From Nitrospirota bacterium (GTDB taxonomy: Bacteria > Nitrospirota > Nitrospiria > SBBL01 > JAADHI01), in NCBI GenBank assembly GCA_029261155.1, contig JAJDBW010000033.1:1-64000 (forward strand): a stretch of 64,000 bases of DNA, given 5' to 3'. A model generated the notes under the pieces. It saw only the letters and a program-made list of their open reading frames with translations, was not told the origin of the DNA and did no database searches. Below, one piece after another: positions 17,570 to 24,254 of the stretch. Within the stretch, counting starts at the first letter, position 1. Every line of letters begins with the position of its first letter. Made by a program: the position numbers and the translations under genes.

Positions 17570-18643
17570 ATGCATTACGATCACGTCATTGTGAAACGCT
17601 TGGTCAATTTTATCCGGGAGATCCACACGGTTTCGCCCTGGCAGGATCAAGGCCGCTTCTTTAAGACCCTCCACCGCATCATACCCTTCGACAACAGCGC
17701 GGCCTTTATCAAAGTCGATCCGGCGACTTCGCGGATACTGCCTTCCTCGATGACCTTGTGGGAAGACGAAGCGGATGTCATGCGCGATCACAATCAATAT
17801 TATTGGAAATTCAAACAACCGATAGTCGCGGAGATCGTGAACAAGCGATTGCGGAGTTTTCATGTGCAAAATGCCCTGCCTCAGTTTTTATCCAAGCCGG
17901 ATTCCGAAGAATACCGGGTCGACTTTTGGGAAAAACACCGCAAACGTTTTTCCTATGCCCAGTATTTTAAAACGCGCCAGGGCTTGTTCAGCCTTTACCT
18001 GACACGGTCATCTCGAAGTCCGGATTTTTCGGAAGAAGAAGAGGGCCTCCTCAACATGCTGCTGCCTCACATGGAGTTAATTTTATCGGCGGCCGAGCCG
18101 GAAACGCCAACCCTTTTTGCCGATCCGAAAGGAAATATCGTTTGTGTGGATGCCGCCGTGGATGACACGCTTAAGCAAGACCCCACGCTGGCAAAACAAT
18201 TTCAGCAAGCCCTGCCGACATGGATCGGCTGGTTTTTATCTGAGCCCTTCAAGCCGCTATGGGTTGAAATCGGTGAAGGGGAACAGCGTTATCGTTGTAC
18301 GGTCTCACCTGCAGGTACGGCCCGCTTGCCGCTCTTTCGCATTTCATGGGCACCGATGGCGGCACCTGCCGGTTTTTCCGAAAATATCTTAGCCGCATTT
18401 TGCCGCCGCTATCCCTTTTCGCCGCGCGAAAAACAAGTGCTCGCCCTGACTGCAGCGGGCAAGCAGCGCAAGGAAATGGCCCAAGCCCTCGGACTCTCCG
18501 TCGAAACCGTGAAAGAATACCTGAGTGGGGTTTACCGGAAAACCGGGGTGGAAGGCAAGGGCGAGCTGCTCGCGAAAATCCTCTCGCAAACCCACCCTCC
18601 CGCCACAATGGAAGTCACCCCTCCTTTTATCATTTCCGATTGA
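17570..18643 (+). CDS. LuxR-family transcriptional regulator
   Basis: A 357-residue protein with a C-terminal LuxR/GerE helix-turn-helix (FSPREKQVLALTAAG, then MAQALGLSVETVKEYLSGVYRKTG). The N-terminal two thirds show a GAF/PAS-like composition with IIPFDNSAAFIKV, but no recognised ligand site, receiver or autoinducer domain. It lies downstream of the SARP block behind a terminator and is likely transcribed on its own. A role in controlling that block is conjecture. Confidence 0.85.
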   Translation: MHYDHVIVKRLVNFIREIHTVSPWQDQGRFFKTLHRIIPFDNSAAFIKVDPATSRILPSSMTLWEDEADVMRDHNQYYWKFKQPIVAEIVNKRLRSFHVQNALPQFLSKPDSEEYRVDFWEKHRKRFSYAQYFKTRQGLFSLYLTRSSRSPDFSEEEEGLLNMLLPHMELILSAAEPETPTLFADPKGNIVCVDAAVDDTLKQDPTLAKQFQQALPTWIGWFLSEPFKPLWVEIGEGEQRYRCTVSPAGTARLPLFRISWAPMAAPAGFSENILAAFCRRYPFSPREKQVLALTAAGKQRKEMAQALGLSVETVKEYLSGVYRKTGVEGKGELLAKILSQTHPPATMEVTPPFIISD

Positions 18644-18647
18644 AAGC

Positions 18648-18668
18648 GGGCGGGTTTGAAACCCGCCC
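18648..18668. terminator. Palindromic hairpin between convergent genes
   Basis: The ten-base arms GGGCGGGTTT and AAACCCGCCC are separated by one base, four bases after the LuxR-type stop and 13 bases before the next gene's stop. It can act as a transcription barrier on both strands. It also resembles short dispersed palindromes found between genes, but no second copy was found here. Confidence 0.55.
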
Positions 18669-18681
18669 CTATGATAATGCA

Positions 18682-19458
18682 TCATCCCATTCCTGCGTCG
18701 CCTGCCGCATCGCTATCTGTTGTGTCGCAGCCACAAGCGCAGCAGTCCGGCGTCTTTCCCACCGTAAATTGAAAGTTACCTTCCTCGATCAGGAGGGGAC
18801 TGTCTTCCGGTCCCGGCATGAAGGTTCGTAAGACGAGCGTGGCGGTTTCGCCTTCTATCGCACCCGGCCGCGCCTCGATATTAAAGGGGACGAATCCGGG
18901 GTTGTCGTGCATCGGCATCGGATCCGGGAATTCGAAACGCCATCCGGTCGGCAGATCGGCCGCGACCTCGAAGGTAAAACCGGCGGCATCTTCAAAGCCC
19001 GTCCCCACAACGTCGCTGTAGCGCAGGCGGGAACCGCTTTCCATGGAGACCCGCGTCGGCAGGGCGATGGGTTTCGTTGTGATGATGTCACTTACATCGC
19101 CGTCCGTGCCGCGTTTACGTCCAACGGCCACGATGTAGTCGCCTCCGAAGTTGAAAACGGTGGCGGCGACCGCATTCGGGACGTCGCAGCACACCAGCAG
19201 ATAACCGTTCGCGCTGACTTGACCGAGATCGATTCTCGGTCCTACGGTTACCTTTTTCTTTCGACAGACAACTTCAAAAACCTTCCGCGTACTGCCGTAC
19301 TTTCGGGCGCGGGCCTTGATGTCGATCTCCAAAGTTTCCTTGGCCGATCCCGTATTCTCGATGGTCACGCAAACCTGCGTGACCTTGAAATCCTTCTTTG
19401 TGATTGGATTGGTCCGTGTAACATCCGAGACCCTTGCTTTTCCGATTTTGATGTTCAT
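18682..19458 (-). CDS. Hypothetical protein with beta-rich domains and Cys-rich C-terminus
   Basis: I do not recognise this 258-residue protein. The ATG at 19458 is chosen because AGGAGG lies directly upstream; a longer in-frame reading overlaps the NicO gene and is unlikely. It has no signal peptide or membrane segment. The sequence is beta-strand-like throughout (KVTQVCVTIENTGSAKETLEID; ADLPTGWRFEFPDPMP) and suggests two immunoglobulin-like folds. The tail has clustered cysteines (CCACGCDTTDSD) that could bind metal. It is the last gene of the DUF4331/NicO operon, 87 bases after the transporter gene. Confidence 0.65.
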   Translation of the reverse strand: MNIKIGKARVSDVTRTNPITKKDFKVTQVCVTIENTGSAKETLEIDIKARARKYGSTRKVFEVVCRKKKVTVGPRIDLGQVSANGYLLVCCDVPNAVAATVFNFGGDYIVAVGRKRGTDGDVSDIITTKPIALPTRVSMESGSRLRYSDVVGTGFEDAAGFTFEVAADLPTGWRFEFPDPMPMHDNPGFVPFNIEARPGAIEGETATLVLRTFMPGPEDSPLLIEEGNFQFTVGKTPDCCACGCDTTDSDAAGDAGMG

Positions 19459-19544
19459 CTTATTTCCTCCTTTTGGGTTGAGGGACCCCACTTTGGAGCC
19501 CGGGTATCGCTTCGTTAGGCAACGAGGCGGGGTGATCAAAGAGT

Positions 19545-20357
19545 TCATAAGCCGACGCCGCCCAGGGCGATCGCCAAACCGAGGCATGCCATGCCCGCGG
19601 CCGAAAGCGGCGGCAGATATCGTGCGAGGGGTGTGAATCTTTTGGAACTTTGGAAAACACTTCCCACGGTCACGACGATTAGGCCGACGCCAACCAGGGT
19701 TGCCGCCAGCCCGGCGCTGAAGGACAGAATCAAGAACAAACCAAAGCCGACTTGATGAAAGGCCACCGCGCTCAACAACACAACGAGAGCGGAAGGACAG
19801 GGGACGATGCCGCCGCTGATCCCCAGGGCAAGGATGCCGCGCAGGCCTGTTGTTCCAGATTCGTGGGCATGGGGATGAACGTGGCTGTGCGTGTCCAAGT
19901 GTGCGTGATCGTGTCGAGCGCTCGCGTTCAATCCGGCAAGGCGTTTGTGCAAAACGCTAAGGCCGATGATGAAAATGCCTAGTCCCGATACACGACTGAG
20001 CCAGGGATAAAAGGTTTCCGGGACGATCAGGTCCGACAAATAGAGCGTGATGAAACCAAGCAGGAAGACGCCGATGGTATGCGCGAAGGTCACGCACAAT
20101 CCCAACAGCAGCGCATGTCGGATCGTCCCCTGCGAACCGGCCAAGTAGGCGGCGACCAAGGTCTTGCCGTGGCCGGGCGAGAGCGCATGCAGGCCGCCCA
20201 ATCCGAAGGCCAGCGCTAAAGCGAAGACAAGTGTCCATCCGCTTGGGGTCACACCTGTCATGAGTTGGGTCAGGGCGCTTTCTCTTGATGTTGTTGCGGC
20301 CTTGTTTTCGGTGCCTTCGGTCTTTGGAACTTCATTCTTAATCATGCCTATATACAA
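19545..20357 (-). CDS. NicO/RcnA-type nickel/cobalt exporter
   Basis: A 270-residue inner-membrane protein with about six hydrophobic helices. It has the NicO-family motif HALSPGHGKT (His57 to Thr66) and a His-rich cytoplasmic or periplasmic loop (HDHAHLDTHSHVHPHAHE) that probably binds metal, as in RcnA. SGGIVPCPSALVVLL is the second conserved family segment. The TTG start at 20357 has GGAAGAGG upstream with seven-base spacing; an ATG four codons later is the alternative. It follows a gene for a periplasmic domain that is fused to NicO domains in other bacteria. Ni, Co or another divalent metal is the expected substrate. Confidence 0.85.
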   Translation of the reverse strand: MYIGMIKNEVPKTEGTENKAATTSRESALTQLMTGVTPSGWTLVFALALAFGLGGLHALSPGHGKTLVAAYLAGSQGTIRHALLLGLCVTFAHTIGVFLLGFITLYLSDLIVPETFYPWLSRVSGLGIFIIGLSVLHKRLAGLNASARHDHAHLDTHSHVHPHAHESGTTGLRGILALGISGGIVPCPSALVVLLSAVAFHQVGFGLFLILSFSAGLAATLVGVGLIVVTVGSVFQSSKRFTPLARYLPPLSAAGMACLGLAIALGGVGL

Positions 20358-20383
20358 TTTTCAGCCTCTTCCTTTTTTCACAC

Positions 20384-20411
20384 ACTATATTGTGTTCAAG
20401 CATAGTCACAA
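20384..20411 (-). promoter_or_regulatory. Candidate internal promoter for the NicO-type gene
   Basis: On the minus strand TTGTGA (20411-20406) and TATAGT (20389-20384) are 16 bases apart, in the A+T-rich gap between the periplasmic-domain gene and the exporter gene. The exporter could thus be expressed separately from the upstream operon genes. Confidence 0.45.
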
Positions 20412-20421
20412 TTCAAGCATA
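20395..20421. repeat. Ten-base direct repeat overlapping the candidate NicO promoter
   Basis: TTCAAGCATA occurs at 20395-20404 and again at 20412-20421, a period of 17 bases. The copies flank and overlap the -35 element of the candidate promoter, as an operator for a metal-responsive repressor might. No regulator gene for it is visible. Confidence 0.5.
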
Positions 20422-20440
20422 TTGCGCTTGGCTGTGAATA

Positions 20441-21091
20441 CTATAGAGGCAAGTTCTTAATTGATATACCGCCTGCTTGAAATGCAAAGCCGGTCGCCAC
20501 CACTCGGGGTGGGGCTTGAAGCGGATTATCGGGATATGCACGCAATTCGCTGCCTTGCGTCGGCAGCGTCGAATCGATCAGGACGATACCGTTCATTCCT
20601 TGTGCGCTCATTTCTTTCCAACCCGTCCGCTGTGGATAGTTCTCGTCTCGATAGTTCAGCGCATAAGCTCGATTGCTCACGTCGATTCCTGTAGGAAGGG
20701 CAGCGCGATAGTCGATAGACAAACGCATCGTGGGCAGACCGCCTGCACCCGGTGGGAAAAGCAGTTCGTGGGTTTGGACCTGAAGCGGAACATCCTCGTC
20801 CGCAATTTTTAAGACGAGGTAAGGCGCGAGTTGCCCACTCTTTATTTCTAAGTAGCGGGTAATCTCACCGTCAGTCGTTTCGCCGTCCGCATTACTGTCA
20901 ATGGCTTGAATTTCCTGAAAGGCCGGGATCTCGGCAAAGTCGAGGATGTAGCGAATATGAACTGCCTCCTTCCCGATGGTCAGTCCCGAATAATGGTTGA
21001 TGGAAAAGTTTCCCATAGGATGGGCGGCGGCTGAACCCGCCCACAAAAAGAACAATCCAATAAATAATGAAATGTGGATCAACCGTTTCAT
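20441..21091 (-). CDS. Periplasmic domain protein associated with NicO exporters
   Basis: A 216-residue protein with a signal peptide (MKRLIHISLFIGLFFLWAG, cleavage near AAA-HP) and the mature start HPMGNFSINHYSGL. This is typical of the periplasmic domain that precedes NicO transport domains in larger fused proteins. Here it is a separate gene followed by an 83-base gap and the NicO gene. An acidic loop (AIDSNADGETTDGEI) resembles an EF-hand-like segment. AGGAGG precedes the ATG, which overlaps the TPR gene stop by four bases. Confidence 0.75.
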   Translation of the reverse strand: MKRLIHISLFIGLFFLWAGSAAAHPMGNFSINHYSGLTIGKEAVHIRYILDFAEIPAFQEIQAIDSNADGETTDGEITRYLEIKSGQLAPYLVLKIADEDVPLQVQTHELLFPPGAGGLPTMRLSIDYRAALPTGIDVSNRAYALNYRDENYPQRTGWKEMSAQGMNGIVLIDSTLPTQGSELRAYPDNPLQAPPRVVATGFAFQAGGISIKNLPL

Positions 21092-22335
21092 GAGTGTCCT
21101 CCTTTTGAGCGGATATGTTTTAGGGTTTTCCGCGCGGTGGCGGCGTGGCGTGAATGAAAGTTGGGGTTTTGTTTCAAGGCCTGATCGAGATGGGAGACCG
21201 CGGTACTCTCTTGTCCCAAGGCATGGGCGATCATCCCCGCGTGAAAATGAATTAACGAATGGCGGCTGCCAGTCCGAAGGGCGGCCTGCATTGTAGTGTG
21301 TGCTTCTTCAAAACGACCTGCTTTGAAATAGGCCCAGCCAAGAATGTCGGCGCCGTGGATGTCTTTGCGAAGGGATGCTTCCGCCTCGGCGATGCGGATG
21401 GCCGCTTCAATATTGCGGTCGTGGTCGGTGTAAAAGAGGGCAAGGGCGCGGTCGTTTTGTCCGCTGTTGAGGCGATTGAGTTGGGCGATGTGTTCGACGA
21501 GGGCGAAGTGTTTTTGGGCTTTGATTTTATTGCCGAGAGCCAGATGGACCTCGCCCAAGGCTGCGGCGGTTTCGAGCGCGGGAACGACAGCCAGAGCCTT
21601 TCGATAATAGATAAGGGCTTCGCCGTTTCGGTCCCGTGCCGCGGCCAATCGTCCCAAGCCTTCAAAGGCGCGACGATAATCAGGATAAGTCTCCAATGCG
21701 GCGCGATAGGTCTCTTCCGCCTTGTCCCCCTTTCCGAGATGGAAGTATTCGTCGCCCAGTTCCACTTGGCACCAGGCGGTGTTCTCCGGGCTACCGCCGC
21801 CCGACTCTATTGCGTGTTGCCAGAAATCGATGGCTCCTTCGGGGTCGCCGTGGAGCGAACGCAGGTGAGCCGCGCGGCTGAGGGCCGCTTGATCCGGCCG
21901 GAGATCGAGCATGCCTTGGGCTGCGGTGACGGCCTTGTCATATTCGCCCAGTTCCAAGTAGGCGTCACTTAAAAGCCCCTCATAAAAGGCGACAGTCGGT
22001 TCGAGAAGATGGGCGGCCTTGGCCAGGACCACCGCACTCTGAAAGCGGTGTTGAAAGAGGGCGATCCAGGCCCGCAGGCCGAGGACCTTGGCGACGTTCT
22101 TTTCCTTTTGCGGGAACGCATCGAGCATGCGCTCCGCGCGTTCGAAATATTGGACCTCGCCTGTTTCACGTCCTCTTTGGATTTCCGCTTGGACGGCGGC
22201 GATGGAAAGCGCGATGCTCGAAACCTCCGGCGATGCGGCCCAAGCGAGTGATCCATTTGTATAAAGCGATAAAAAAATCGAAAGCAGTATCGTGCCGATG
22301 AAATTCCTGTTTTTAAAATTTATTTTTTTCTGCAT
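21088..22335 (-). CDS. Exported TPR-repeat protein
   Basis: A protein of about 415 residues with an N-terminal hydrophobic export signal (NFIGTILLSIFLSLYTNG, then LAWA) and at least six TPR-like helical repeats, for example AWCQVELGDEYFHLGKGDKAEETYRAALETYPDYRRAF written across two helices. The ATG at 22335 has GGGGAG seven bases upstream. TPR proteins act as interaction scaffolds. It lies between DUF4331 and the periplasmic NicO-associated gene in one operon, so it probably helps assemble that system in the periplasm. Confidence 0.8.
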   Translation of the reverse strand: MQKKINFKNRNFIGTILLSIFLSLYTNGSLAWAASPEVSSIALSIAAVQAEIQRGRETGEVQYFERAERMLDAFPQKEKNVAKVLGLRAWIALFQHRFQSAVVLAKAAHLLEPTVAFYEGLLSDAYLELGEYDKAVTAAQGMLDLRPDQAALSRAAHLRSLHGDPEGAIDFWQHAIESGGGSPENTAWCQVELGDEYFHLGKGDKAEETYRAALETYPDYRRAFEGLGRLAAARDRNGEALIYYRKALAVVPALETAAALGEVHLALGNKIKAQKHFALVEHIAQLNRLNSGQNDRALALFYTDHDRNIEAAIRIAEAEASLRKDIHGADILGWAYFKAGRFEEAHTTMQAALRTGSRHSLIHFHAGMIAHALGQESTAVSHLDQALKQNPNFHSRHAATARKTLKHIRSKGGHS

Positions 22336-22392
22336 GGTCATTCTCCCCGCTTTGAAAACCGGGACGGGGTGAAGGCCCCGCCCCGTATTCAA

Positions 22393-23880
22393 TTAAGGCG
22401 TTTCGCCCGGATCGATATGCCTCCGGTTTCGGCCGTCGTGCGGCGTGGGCAGGAAGGGAAAGGCCACCGCGATGCCGTTAGGCGTAATGTCGCTGCTGGG
22501 GCTGCCGATGTTGAAATTCACCCCGTCGCCCAAGGCGGGGACGCCCGTGTTGATCAAAGCCCCACCCACCGCGCGCAGGGCAATATCGGTCACATCGTCG
22601 TTGGGCCGGCGGCCGTTGGGAAAACCGGCGAGGTCGGGTGTGGGATTCCCCGCCGTGTCCGTCGCAAAGGGGCCTAATCGGCGTTGGCTGAAGGGATTTG
22701 TCGGCTCTACGTCTAAATTCAGACGGAGAAAATCGGCCAAGCGCCCGCTGGGGCTGCTTTGGCTGCAGATATTTGTAATCGCGCCGTCCCCGTAACGGAG
22801 GAAGAGGTTGGCCAAATCATCCCGATTGTCTGTCGGAAAGTTCGTCCCGAAGACCGTGTTGAGGGCCACGGCCAAGGACGAGTTACAGTAGTATTTGAGG
22901 AACTGGGCCTCAAACTCCGAGAAGTTGGCGTTCCACTTGTCCTTGGTGTCGGTGGGGATGATCAGTTCGTTGACCAGCGGATTTCCCATGCGCGCCACTT
23001 GGGCGTAGAAATTGGAGTTCGTCCGCCGGTTGTCCCTCCGCAACACCCGCACGCGCGGGCGGCTGGTGGCGGCATAAGCCCCGATGACTTTGTTGCCGTC
23101 CGCGCCCATCAGTTCAGCAATGGGAACCTCGATGGCGATGCTGTTGACGTTGAAGCCGCTGAAGGCATCGACCGCGCCGAAGACGTTTTGACCATCGTCC
23201 GCATCCTCTGTTTGCGAAAGGATGGGCGAAGTCCGCAGATTCAAGGTATCGAAGACCGCGCCCAGGTCGATGTAGAAGGTCTCGTCGCGCTGTCCGGCAA
23301 AGACCCGTCCGCCATTACTCAAGGGATAGATCCCCTGCTGGGCCAGGCCTTCGTAGTCGGGCAGGGTGCGCGGCCCCACGTTTGAAGGCACGGCGAACAT
23401 CATTCCGCTGCCCAAGGTTTTGGAAGTTTGGCCGAAACGCTTTTCGGTGACGGTGTAGCTTTGCCGTAGGATGAAACCCTCCGAACCCGGACCGTCCAGG
23501 GCCGTGATGGGCGGCAGGGCGGCGTAGCTCAGCGTAAAGACATCGCCGGGAGAGCGGACCTCTGTCTTAAATTGGAACTGATAGACGATATTCCGGGCGA
23601 TGTTGTTCTTGTTGTTGTCGATGTAGATCTCGTAGAGCACCTCATCGTCGAAGTTGAAATAGTTGGGCCCGCTGCCTGGTTCCTGCGCAGGGATGACGTT
23701 CATCACAAAGACCGCCTTATCGGGGTCCGTGGGACTCCGAAAGGCGTAGAAATCTGTGATATCCGCTGCCGGGTCCAAGGAGATGAGTGGGGCCTCCCGG
23801 TGGCTGGCCGCAAAGACTGAAGTCGTCAGCAACATCCCCGCCAGCGATAGTGCGAGTTGTTTTTTAGTTTGGCTAAACAT
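22393..23880 (-). CDS. DUF4331 family exported protein
   Basis: A 495-residue protein with a signal peptide (cleaved near VFAA) and the family-defining mature N-terminus SHREAPLISLDPAADITDFYAFRSP. The middle contains long beta-rich segments and Asp/Asn-rich stretches such as DNNKNN. The function of DUF4331 is not established. AGGAGG precedes the ATG. The gene is the second of six in the operon and is followed, after about 57 bases, by the TPR gene. Confidence 0.88.
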   Translation of the reverse strand: MFSQTKKQLALSLAGMLLTTSVFAASHREAPLISLDPAADITDFYAFRSPTDPDKAVFVMNVIPAQEPGSGPNYFNFDDEVLYEIYIDNNKNNIARNIVYQFQFKTEVRSPGDVFTLSYAALPPITALDGPGSEGFILRQSYTVTEKRFGQTSKTLGSGMMFAVPSNVGPRTLPDYEGLAQQGIYPLSNGGRVFAGQRDETFYIDLGAVFDTLNLRTSPILSQTEDADDGQNVFGAVDAFSGFNVNSIAIEVPIAELMGADGNKVIGAYAATSRPRVRVLRRDNRRTNSNFYAQVARMGNPLVNELIIPTDTKDKWNANFSEFEAQFLKYYCNSSLAVALNTVFGTNFPTDNRDDLANLFLRYGDGAITNICSQSSPSGRLADFLRLNLDVEPTNPFSQRRLGPFATDTAGNPTPDLAGFPNGRRPNDDVTDIALRAVGGALINTGVPALGDGVNFNIGSPSSDITPNGIAVAFPFLPTPHDGRNRRHIDPGETP

Positions 23881-23914
23881 GGTTTCCTCCTTTTTGTTTG
23901 TCTGGGTTCTTGGG

Positions 23915-24139
23915 TTAATTCGTTTCTACAGGGAAATCCGCGACGGCCTTGTTGTGTTCGCCTTCCGCCGAGGCCACTAAATCTTCTTCTGGCTTGCTCA
24001 GGGTGTCGGTCGGAGCCGAAACTGTTTCCTCCAGTCGGCCTTCACCAGCCCCGCCGACACGGTCACTCTGCGAGGAACACGCGAAGGCTAAAGCGGCGAT
24101 CCAAAAAAACAGGATTGTGTATCCGATTCGTCTTCTCAT
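23915..24139 (-). CDS. Small putative lipoprotein
   Basis: A 74-residue protein with a lipoprotein signal (TILFFWIAALAFAC, Cys21) followed by a short acidic, unstructured mature region ending NKAVADFPVETN. A perfect AGGAGGTG lies upstream of the ATG at 24139. It is the first gene of the DUF4331/NicO operon. No family is recognised. Confidence 0.65.
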   Translation of the reverse strand: MRRRIGYTILFFWIAALAFACSSQSDRVGGAGEGRLEETVSAPTDTLSKPEEDLVASAEGEHNKAVADFPVETN

Positions 24140-24234: not shown

Positions 24235-24254
24235 ATCCCCCCACGCGGGGGGAT
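24235..24254. repeat. Strong GC hairpin in the divergent region upstream of dprA
   Basis: An eight-base perfect inverted repeat (ATCCCCCC, loop ACGC, GGGGGGAT) lies between the divergent lipoprotein and dprA genes. It has no T run, so it is not a standard terminator. It may insulate the two transcription units. Confidence 0.45.

Follow-up and report, generated by a model that had tools for sequence, protein, structure and literature searches.

A minus-strand DUF4331 operon with a TPR protein and a split NicO permease in a Nitrospirota genome: a possible module for extracytoplasmic transition-metal capture

The closest described counterparts of the locus reported here are the anglerases Ang-1 and Ang-2, which are fused to HupE/UreJ-2 permeases (PMC12537917). 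PDB entry 9GCE is the copper-bound Ang-1 domain of such a protein; its copper ligands are His1 and Asn41, and in vitro Ang-1 binds copper with a Kd of 74 nM and nickel with a Kd of 220 nM (PMC12537917). The HupE/UreJ-2 type has been linked to nickel uptake (reference within PMC12537917), and the DUF4198 family includes a nickel-binding member with an N-terminal His (PMC12537917). The word 'anglerase' appears in this single open-access paper, the text of which contains no mention of TPR, tetratricopeptide or NicO. DUF4331, or its Pfam accession PF14224, is named in none of the open-access papers searched, a scope outside which most subscription papers lie, and the open-access literature searched yielded nothing relevant on HupE paired with TPR or ChrR. 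DUF4331, an uncharacterized domain, is present in several phyla, and a conserved metal-permease operon around it, together with its exactly conserved N-terminus, provides a concrete functional hypothesis.

The DNA analyzed, referred to below as the window, is a stretch of 64,000 nucleotides from a Nitrospirota genome. Six open reading frames on its minus strand, running from 24139 to 18682, form a real operon with the short gaps and overlaps described in an earlier sequence-only reading. In transcriptional order these encode (i) a small lipoprotein of 74 amino acids (23915–24139); (ii) a DUF4331 protein of 495 amino acids (22393–23880); (iii) a TPR protein (21088–22335) with a signal peptide (AWA|AS), many TPR matches in Pfam and orthologues that adjoin DUF4331 in most loci; (iv) a secreted periplasmic domain of 216 amino acids (20441–21091); (v) an RcnA-like NicO permease (19545–20357) and (vi) a Cys-tailed protein of 258 amino acids (18682–19458). 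Pfam assigns no family to the lipoprotein, periplasmic ORF or Cys-tailed protein. Lipoprotein and DUF4331 genes are separated by 34 bp, the TPR gene and the periplasmic ORF overlap by 4 bp, and NicO is spaced 83 bp from the periplasmic ORF and 86 bp from the Cys-tailed protein gene. The TPR protein probably starts at ATG 22335, about 57 bp from DUF4331, rather than at TTG 22392, up to which the frame is open. Similarly, the Cys-tailed protein probably starts at ATG 19458 rather than at 19587, and NicO starts at TTG 20357 or alternatively at ATG 20345. Shine-Dalgarno-like sequences are visible by eye ahead of the lipoprotein and DUF4331 genes (GGAGG), the periplasmic ORF and ATG 19458 (AGGAGG) and TTG 20357 (GGAAGAGG).

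The periplasmic domain provides a possible structural connection to the anglerases. Its predicted mature N-terminus is His-Pro, and the His1 residue is invariant in 30 aligned domains. An AF2 model of the domain (pLDDT 90.7) has 9GCE, the β-sandwich of Ang-1, as its top PDB match in Foldseek (E = 6.1e-5, probability 1.00), with a TM score of only 0.42. Profile searches of PDB sequences with the domain do not recover 9GCE, and the likeness is therefore one of fold. Like the anglerases, the domain is predicted to be secreted, with an invariant His at its predicted mature N-terminus, is probably β-rich and is placed before a metal permease, and most permeases of DUF4331 loci share the Pfam type (PF13795) of the anglerase-bearing proteins; unlike them, it is encoded by a separate gene, its permease is NicO and it has no sequence-level match to 9GCE. 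All 74 of the permease N-termini that carry the motif fit, by prediction, the –3/–1 rule for cleavage just ahead of the His. An EF-hand-like loop in the window domain, DSNADGETTDGE, is lost in L045, L056 and L061. The NicO-type periplasmic domain occurs in 5 of 58 relatives, every time at a DUF4331 locus, and at two loci (L041 and L042) it sits on a HupE permease. Relative to the anglerases, the novelty lies in a NicO-type permease, in its separation from a putative N-terminal-His domain for metal capture and in the tie to DUF4331 and TPR; the anglerase concept would then also cover NicO proteins and a domain that stands alone.

The DUF4331 match is full-length (PF14224, 356.4 bits against a cut-off of 27, E = 3.5e-106, profile positions 2–421 of 421). 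The signal peptide is followed by ASHREAP, a run of seven residues invariant in an alignment of 45 DUF4331 sequences; (A/S)SHREAP is present in all 96 distinct N-termini bearing the motif. Small residues at –3 and –1 flank a variable residue in the cleavage region, and counting by the cleavage rule places the predicted mature start of the window protein at Ala25 (base 23808). Cleavage before (A/S)SH is allowed by the –3/–1 rule in 93 of the 96 sequences and by a strict AxA-like rule in 71. A cut two residues further on, leaving His1, agrees with the loose rule in 94 and with the strict rule in none. Because (A/S)SHREAP lies directly behind the signal peptide, the mature protein likely begins with X-S-His, which we take to be an ATCUN motif and which is a predicted ATCUN-type site for copper or nickel. 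Either cleavage would leave a metal-chelating terminus, and a sequence so exactly conserved could chelate copper or nickel. The AF2 model of the protein (pLDDT 80, pTM 0.87) has low confidence at residues 1–3. The nickel-binding DUF4198 protein (PMC12537917) is likewise secreted and has a metal-chelating N-terminus, as predicted for DUF4331, but it belongs to another Pfam family, and prediction puts the His of DUF4331 at mature position 3 rather than 1. In one pseudomonadotal locus (L107:4870–7450), a DUF4331 gene lacking TPR and permease neighbors is divergent from a DUF4198 gene (PF10670).

DUF4331, TPR and permease genes constitute a conserved module that recurs in several phyla. We sampled DUF4331 loci irrespective of their neighbor genes, as similarity matches in GTDB contigs, in Nitrospirota genomes and in Pseudomonadota genomes; of the assessable full-length loci, 38/39, 33/34 and 11/15, respectively, have a TPR gene and a permease gene no more than 6 kb away on the DUF4331 strand, with both partners absent in the remaining 4 of the 15 Pseudomonadota loci. 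For the 50 loci in which DUF4331 is flanked by 5 kb or more in both directions, the downstream genes on its strand include TPR in 44, HupE in 37 and NicO in 4, compared with one TPR and one HupE upstream and none on the opposite strand. The linkage of DUF4331 to TPR and permease exceeds chance. The recurrence of the same gene set across several phyla makes extracytoplasmic handling of nickel or copper a likely role of DUF4331. In Paraburkholderia TPR and HupE lie upstream of DUF4331; annotated plasmids of Streptomyces carry DUF4331, TPR and a 'nickel transporter' in module order, as do those of Marinobacter, Pseudoalteromonas and Lichenicola with HupE/UreJ; and annotated plasmids of Adhaeribacter and Miltoncostaea have DUF4331–TPR with no permease. 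A search centered on the L056 genome added few DUF4331 loci. On the Lichenicola plasmid (L133:5821–9872), DUF4331, an unknown protein and a HupE/UreJ set lie near IS66 genes, and this proximity suggests that the module may move between genomes.

The sequence-only reading had proposed NicO as the partner of DUF4331 and suggested that the context might be informative. The linkage is real and is found elsewhere, but the usual partner is a HupE_UreJ_2 permease (PF13795) with an N-terminal His domain, and NicO accounts for about one tenth of the loci (9/88). Fused NicO proteins are encoded in relatives of the window, Rokubacteria, Myxococcota contigs and Streptomyces. On a FastTree phylogeny of 94 DUF4331 sequences, the deepest part of which is uncertain owing to long plasmid-sequence branches, the NicO label requires five changes, and at least four of these are forced by starred branches. 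Among Nitrospirota genomes, 30 of the 33 that encode full-length DUF4331 also encode HupE_UreJ_2, compared with 18 of the 263 others (Fisher p = 3e-25, kinship not corrected). That one partner set occurs with either permease family bears on whether NicO and HupE/UreJ-2 proteins share a job.

Our preferred interpretation, in which we place about even confidence, is that the locus is an extracytoplasmic module for the capture and transfer of a transition metal, copper or nickel and possibly cobalt. Secreted DUF4331 would probably bind metal through its new Ala-Ser-His N-terminus, and the TPR protein may serve as an adaptor at the outer face of the inner membrane. Judging from its fold and the conservation of His1, the free-standing anglerase-like domain could act as a gatekeeper, with its N-terminal His holding metal that is exchanged with the NicO permease. 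Several observations support capture and transfer: TPR and permease lie on the DUF4331 strand in most loci; the permease has switched at least four times with DUF4331 linkage retained; the domain resembles copper-bound Ang-1, and permease N-termini uniformly allow an exposed His; the NicO-type domain keeps to DUF4331 loci, and HupE_UreJ_2 and DUF4331 co-occur; most DUF4331 sequences fit X-S-H cleavage, a TonB-like gene lies between DUF4331 and TPR in many Nitrospira loci and one DUF4331 gene has a DUF4198 neighbor. Other observations weaken it, namely the low TM score and the failure of profile searches to find 9GCE, the Pseudomonadota loci devoid of both partners, the lack of an Rfam match to a metal or cobalamin riboswitch upstream of the operon, a cleavage rule that also permits His1 on DUF4331 and the RcnA-like character of the window NicO. 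A more specific version, that DUF4331 is the secreted X-S-His copper or nickel component of an undescribed multi-phylum acquisition system, passing metal to the TPR adaptor and on to an anglerase-type HupE/UreJ-2 or NicO permease, we consider doubtful at present.

The strongest competing explanation is a nickel/cobalt efflux operon for detoxification, in which NicO would export cytoplasmic metal and the periplasmic proteins would buffer or dispose of it. The window permease is above the cut-off for the NicO family (PF03824, 32.3 bits against 27.7), has a His-rich loop, HDHAHLDTHSHVHPHAHE, as had been noted from the sequence, and finds its best NCBIfam match in the RcnA nickel/cobalt efflux model (PRK10019.1, 111.5 bits, E = 4e-32). 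These are also its likenesses to the RcnA efflux transporter itself. The score is nonetheless below the RcnA subfamily cut-off of 195, and the window protein differs from RcnA in being tied to a periplasmic His1 domain, a TPR protein and DUF4331. In addition, the permease that takes its place at most DUF4331 loci is of the uptake-linked HupE/UreJ-2 type (PMC12537917), and the TonB-like gene of the Nitrospira loci also counts against efflux. The homology behind the label 'metal exporter' in the sequence-only reading is present, but 'exporter' is a name taken solely from RcnA homology and is putative for this protein. We regard efflux as somewhat unlikely. For the capture-and-transfer interpretation, HupE interchange and the TonB-like gene lead us to favor uptake or periplasmic delivery slightly over efflux, with NicO homology pointing in the opposite direction.

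It is also conceivable, and in our estimation quite unlikely, that DUF4331 has a role unrelated to metal, as a surface structure, a Ca2+-bound secreted enzyme or an adhesin, with the permease supplying a cofactor metal or being linked through regulation. This explanation would accommodate the many residues, several of them acidic, that are invariant beyond the N-terminus in the 45-sequence alignment, as well as a DUF4331 model that matches no fold in the PDB at E ≤ 0.001; sequence searches of the PDB likewise returned no homologue. In Sulfitobacter and Paracoccus, moreover, DUF4331 adjoins type II secretion genes instead and has no permease nearby. The constancy of strand and neighbors in several phyla argues against a non-metal role, as do the repeated permease swaps during which the linkage was kept.

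The periplasmic and transport domains, fused elsewhere, had been read as separate genes in the window, and comparison with relatives bears this out. In L016, L017, L070 and L077, relatives from the window's family, order and class, the two form a single ORF of 466–488 amino acids; the window halves are 45–62% identical to these fused proteins, and the break falls in a variable linker. Each of the three forward frames is closed by stops within the 83-bp gap, and a ribosome-binding site precedes the NicO start. A single frameshift is ruled out by these features as the origin of the split, and the stops indicate a true gene split in the window assembly. The split is observed in the window genome only, the assembly of which is a draft of 90 contigs. 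That draft status and the four fused close relatives could be taken to mean that an assembly error has divided one fused gene of an otherwise ordinary module copy, a very improbable account given the gap with its stops and ribosome-binding site and the intactness of both halves. In a Rokubacteria contig (L055:3175–5489) the periplasmic and NicO parts are also separate ORFs, with a 4-bp overlap, as a result of either another split or an error in the sequence.

The outer genes of the operon differ in their conservation. Lipoproteins of ~73 amino acids with a related tail, D.LT..E..LV..A..E, recur in about 20 Nitrospirota loci, where their genes directly precede DUF4331, with a further instance at L140:5751–5972, and the small lipoprotein is a conserved DUF4331 partner in Nitrospirota. 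The Cys-tailed protein does have the Cys tail noted earlier (CCACGC) and has no visible signal peptide. The 57 relatives searched gave no copy of it, the window genome being the only one of the 58 that has it; we rejected it as a member of the conserved module. A gene for a ~1065-amino-acid M1/M28 double peptidase lies directly 5′ of DUF4331 in two relatives (L016:2721–5927 and L068:1076–4264) and is absent from the window.

Potential regulatory elements surround the DUF4331 loci. Genes for an ECF sigma factor and for a ChrR-cupin or RskA-type anti-sigma factor, two types that our iterative anti-sigma profile may merge, flank many DUF4331 loci but not that of the window; ECF sigma and ChrR-cupin genes stand beside DUF4331 at L029:6449–7722 and in many Nitrospira loci, suggesting stress-controlled expression of DUF4331. 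The lipoprotein and dprA genes of the window diverge, and their starts are separated by a near-perfect GC-rich palindrome (24236–24253), TCCCCCCGCGTGGGGGGA, possibly an operator or a hairpin. It was rejected as a conserved operator, being present among 140 fetched loci in the window's own sequence only. At the other end, an inverted repeat, GGGCGGGTTT/AAACCCGCCC (~18650–18667), separates the operon from a convergent LuxR-type gene on the plus strand (17570–18643, PF00196); the repeat is absent from the list of a terminator scan that demands a T-run. Full-length orthologues of this LuxR-type protein occur in 7 of 58 relatives, six of which have DUF4331 (hypergeometric p = 5e-4, kinship not corrected), and in G000, G002, G011 and G023 the gene lies no more than about 12 kb from DUF4331 in convergent orientation, making it a candidate regulator of the operon.
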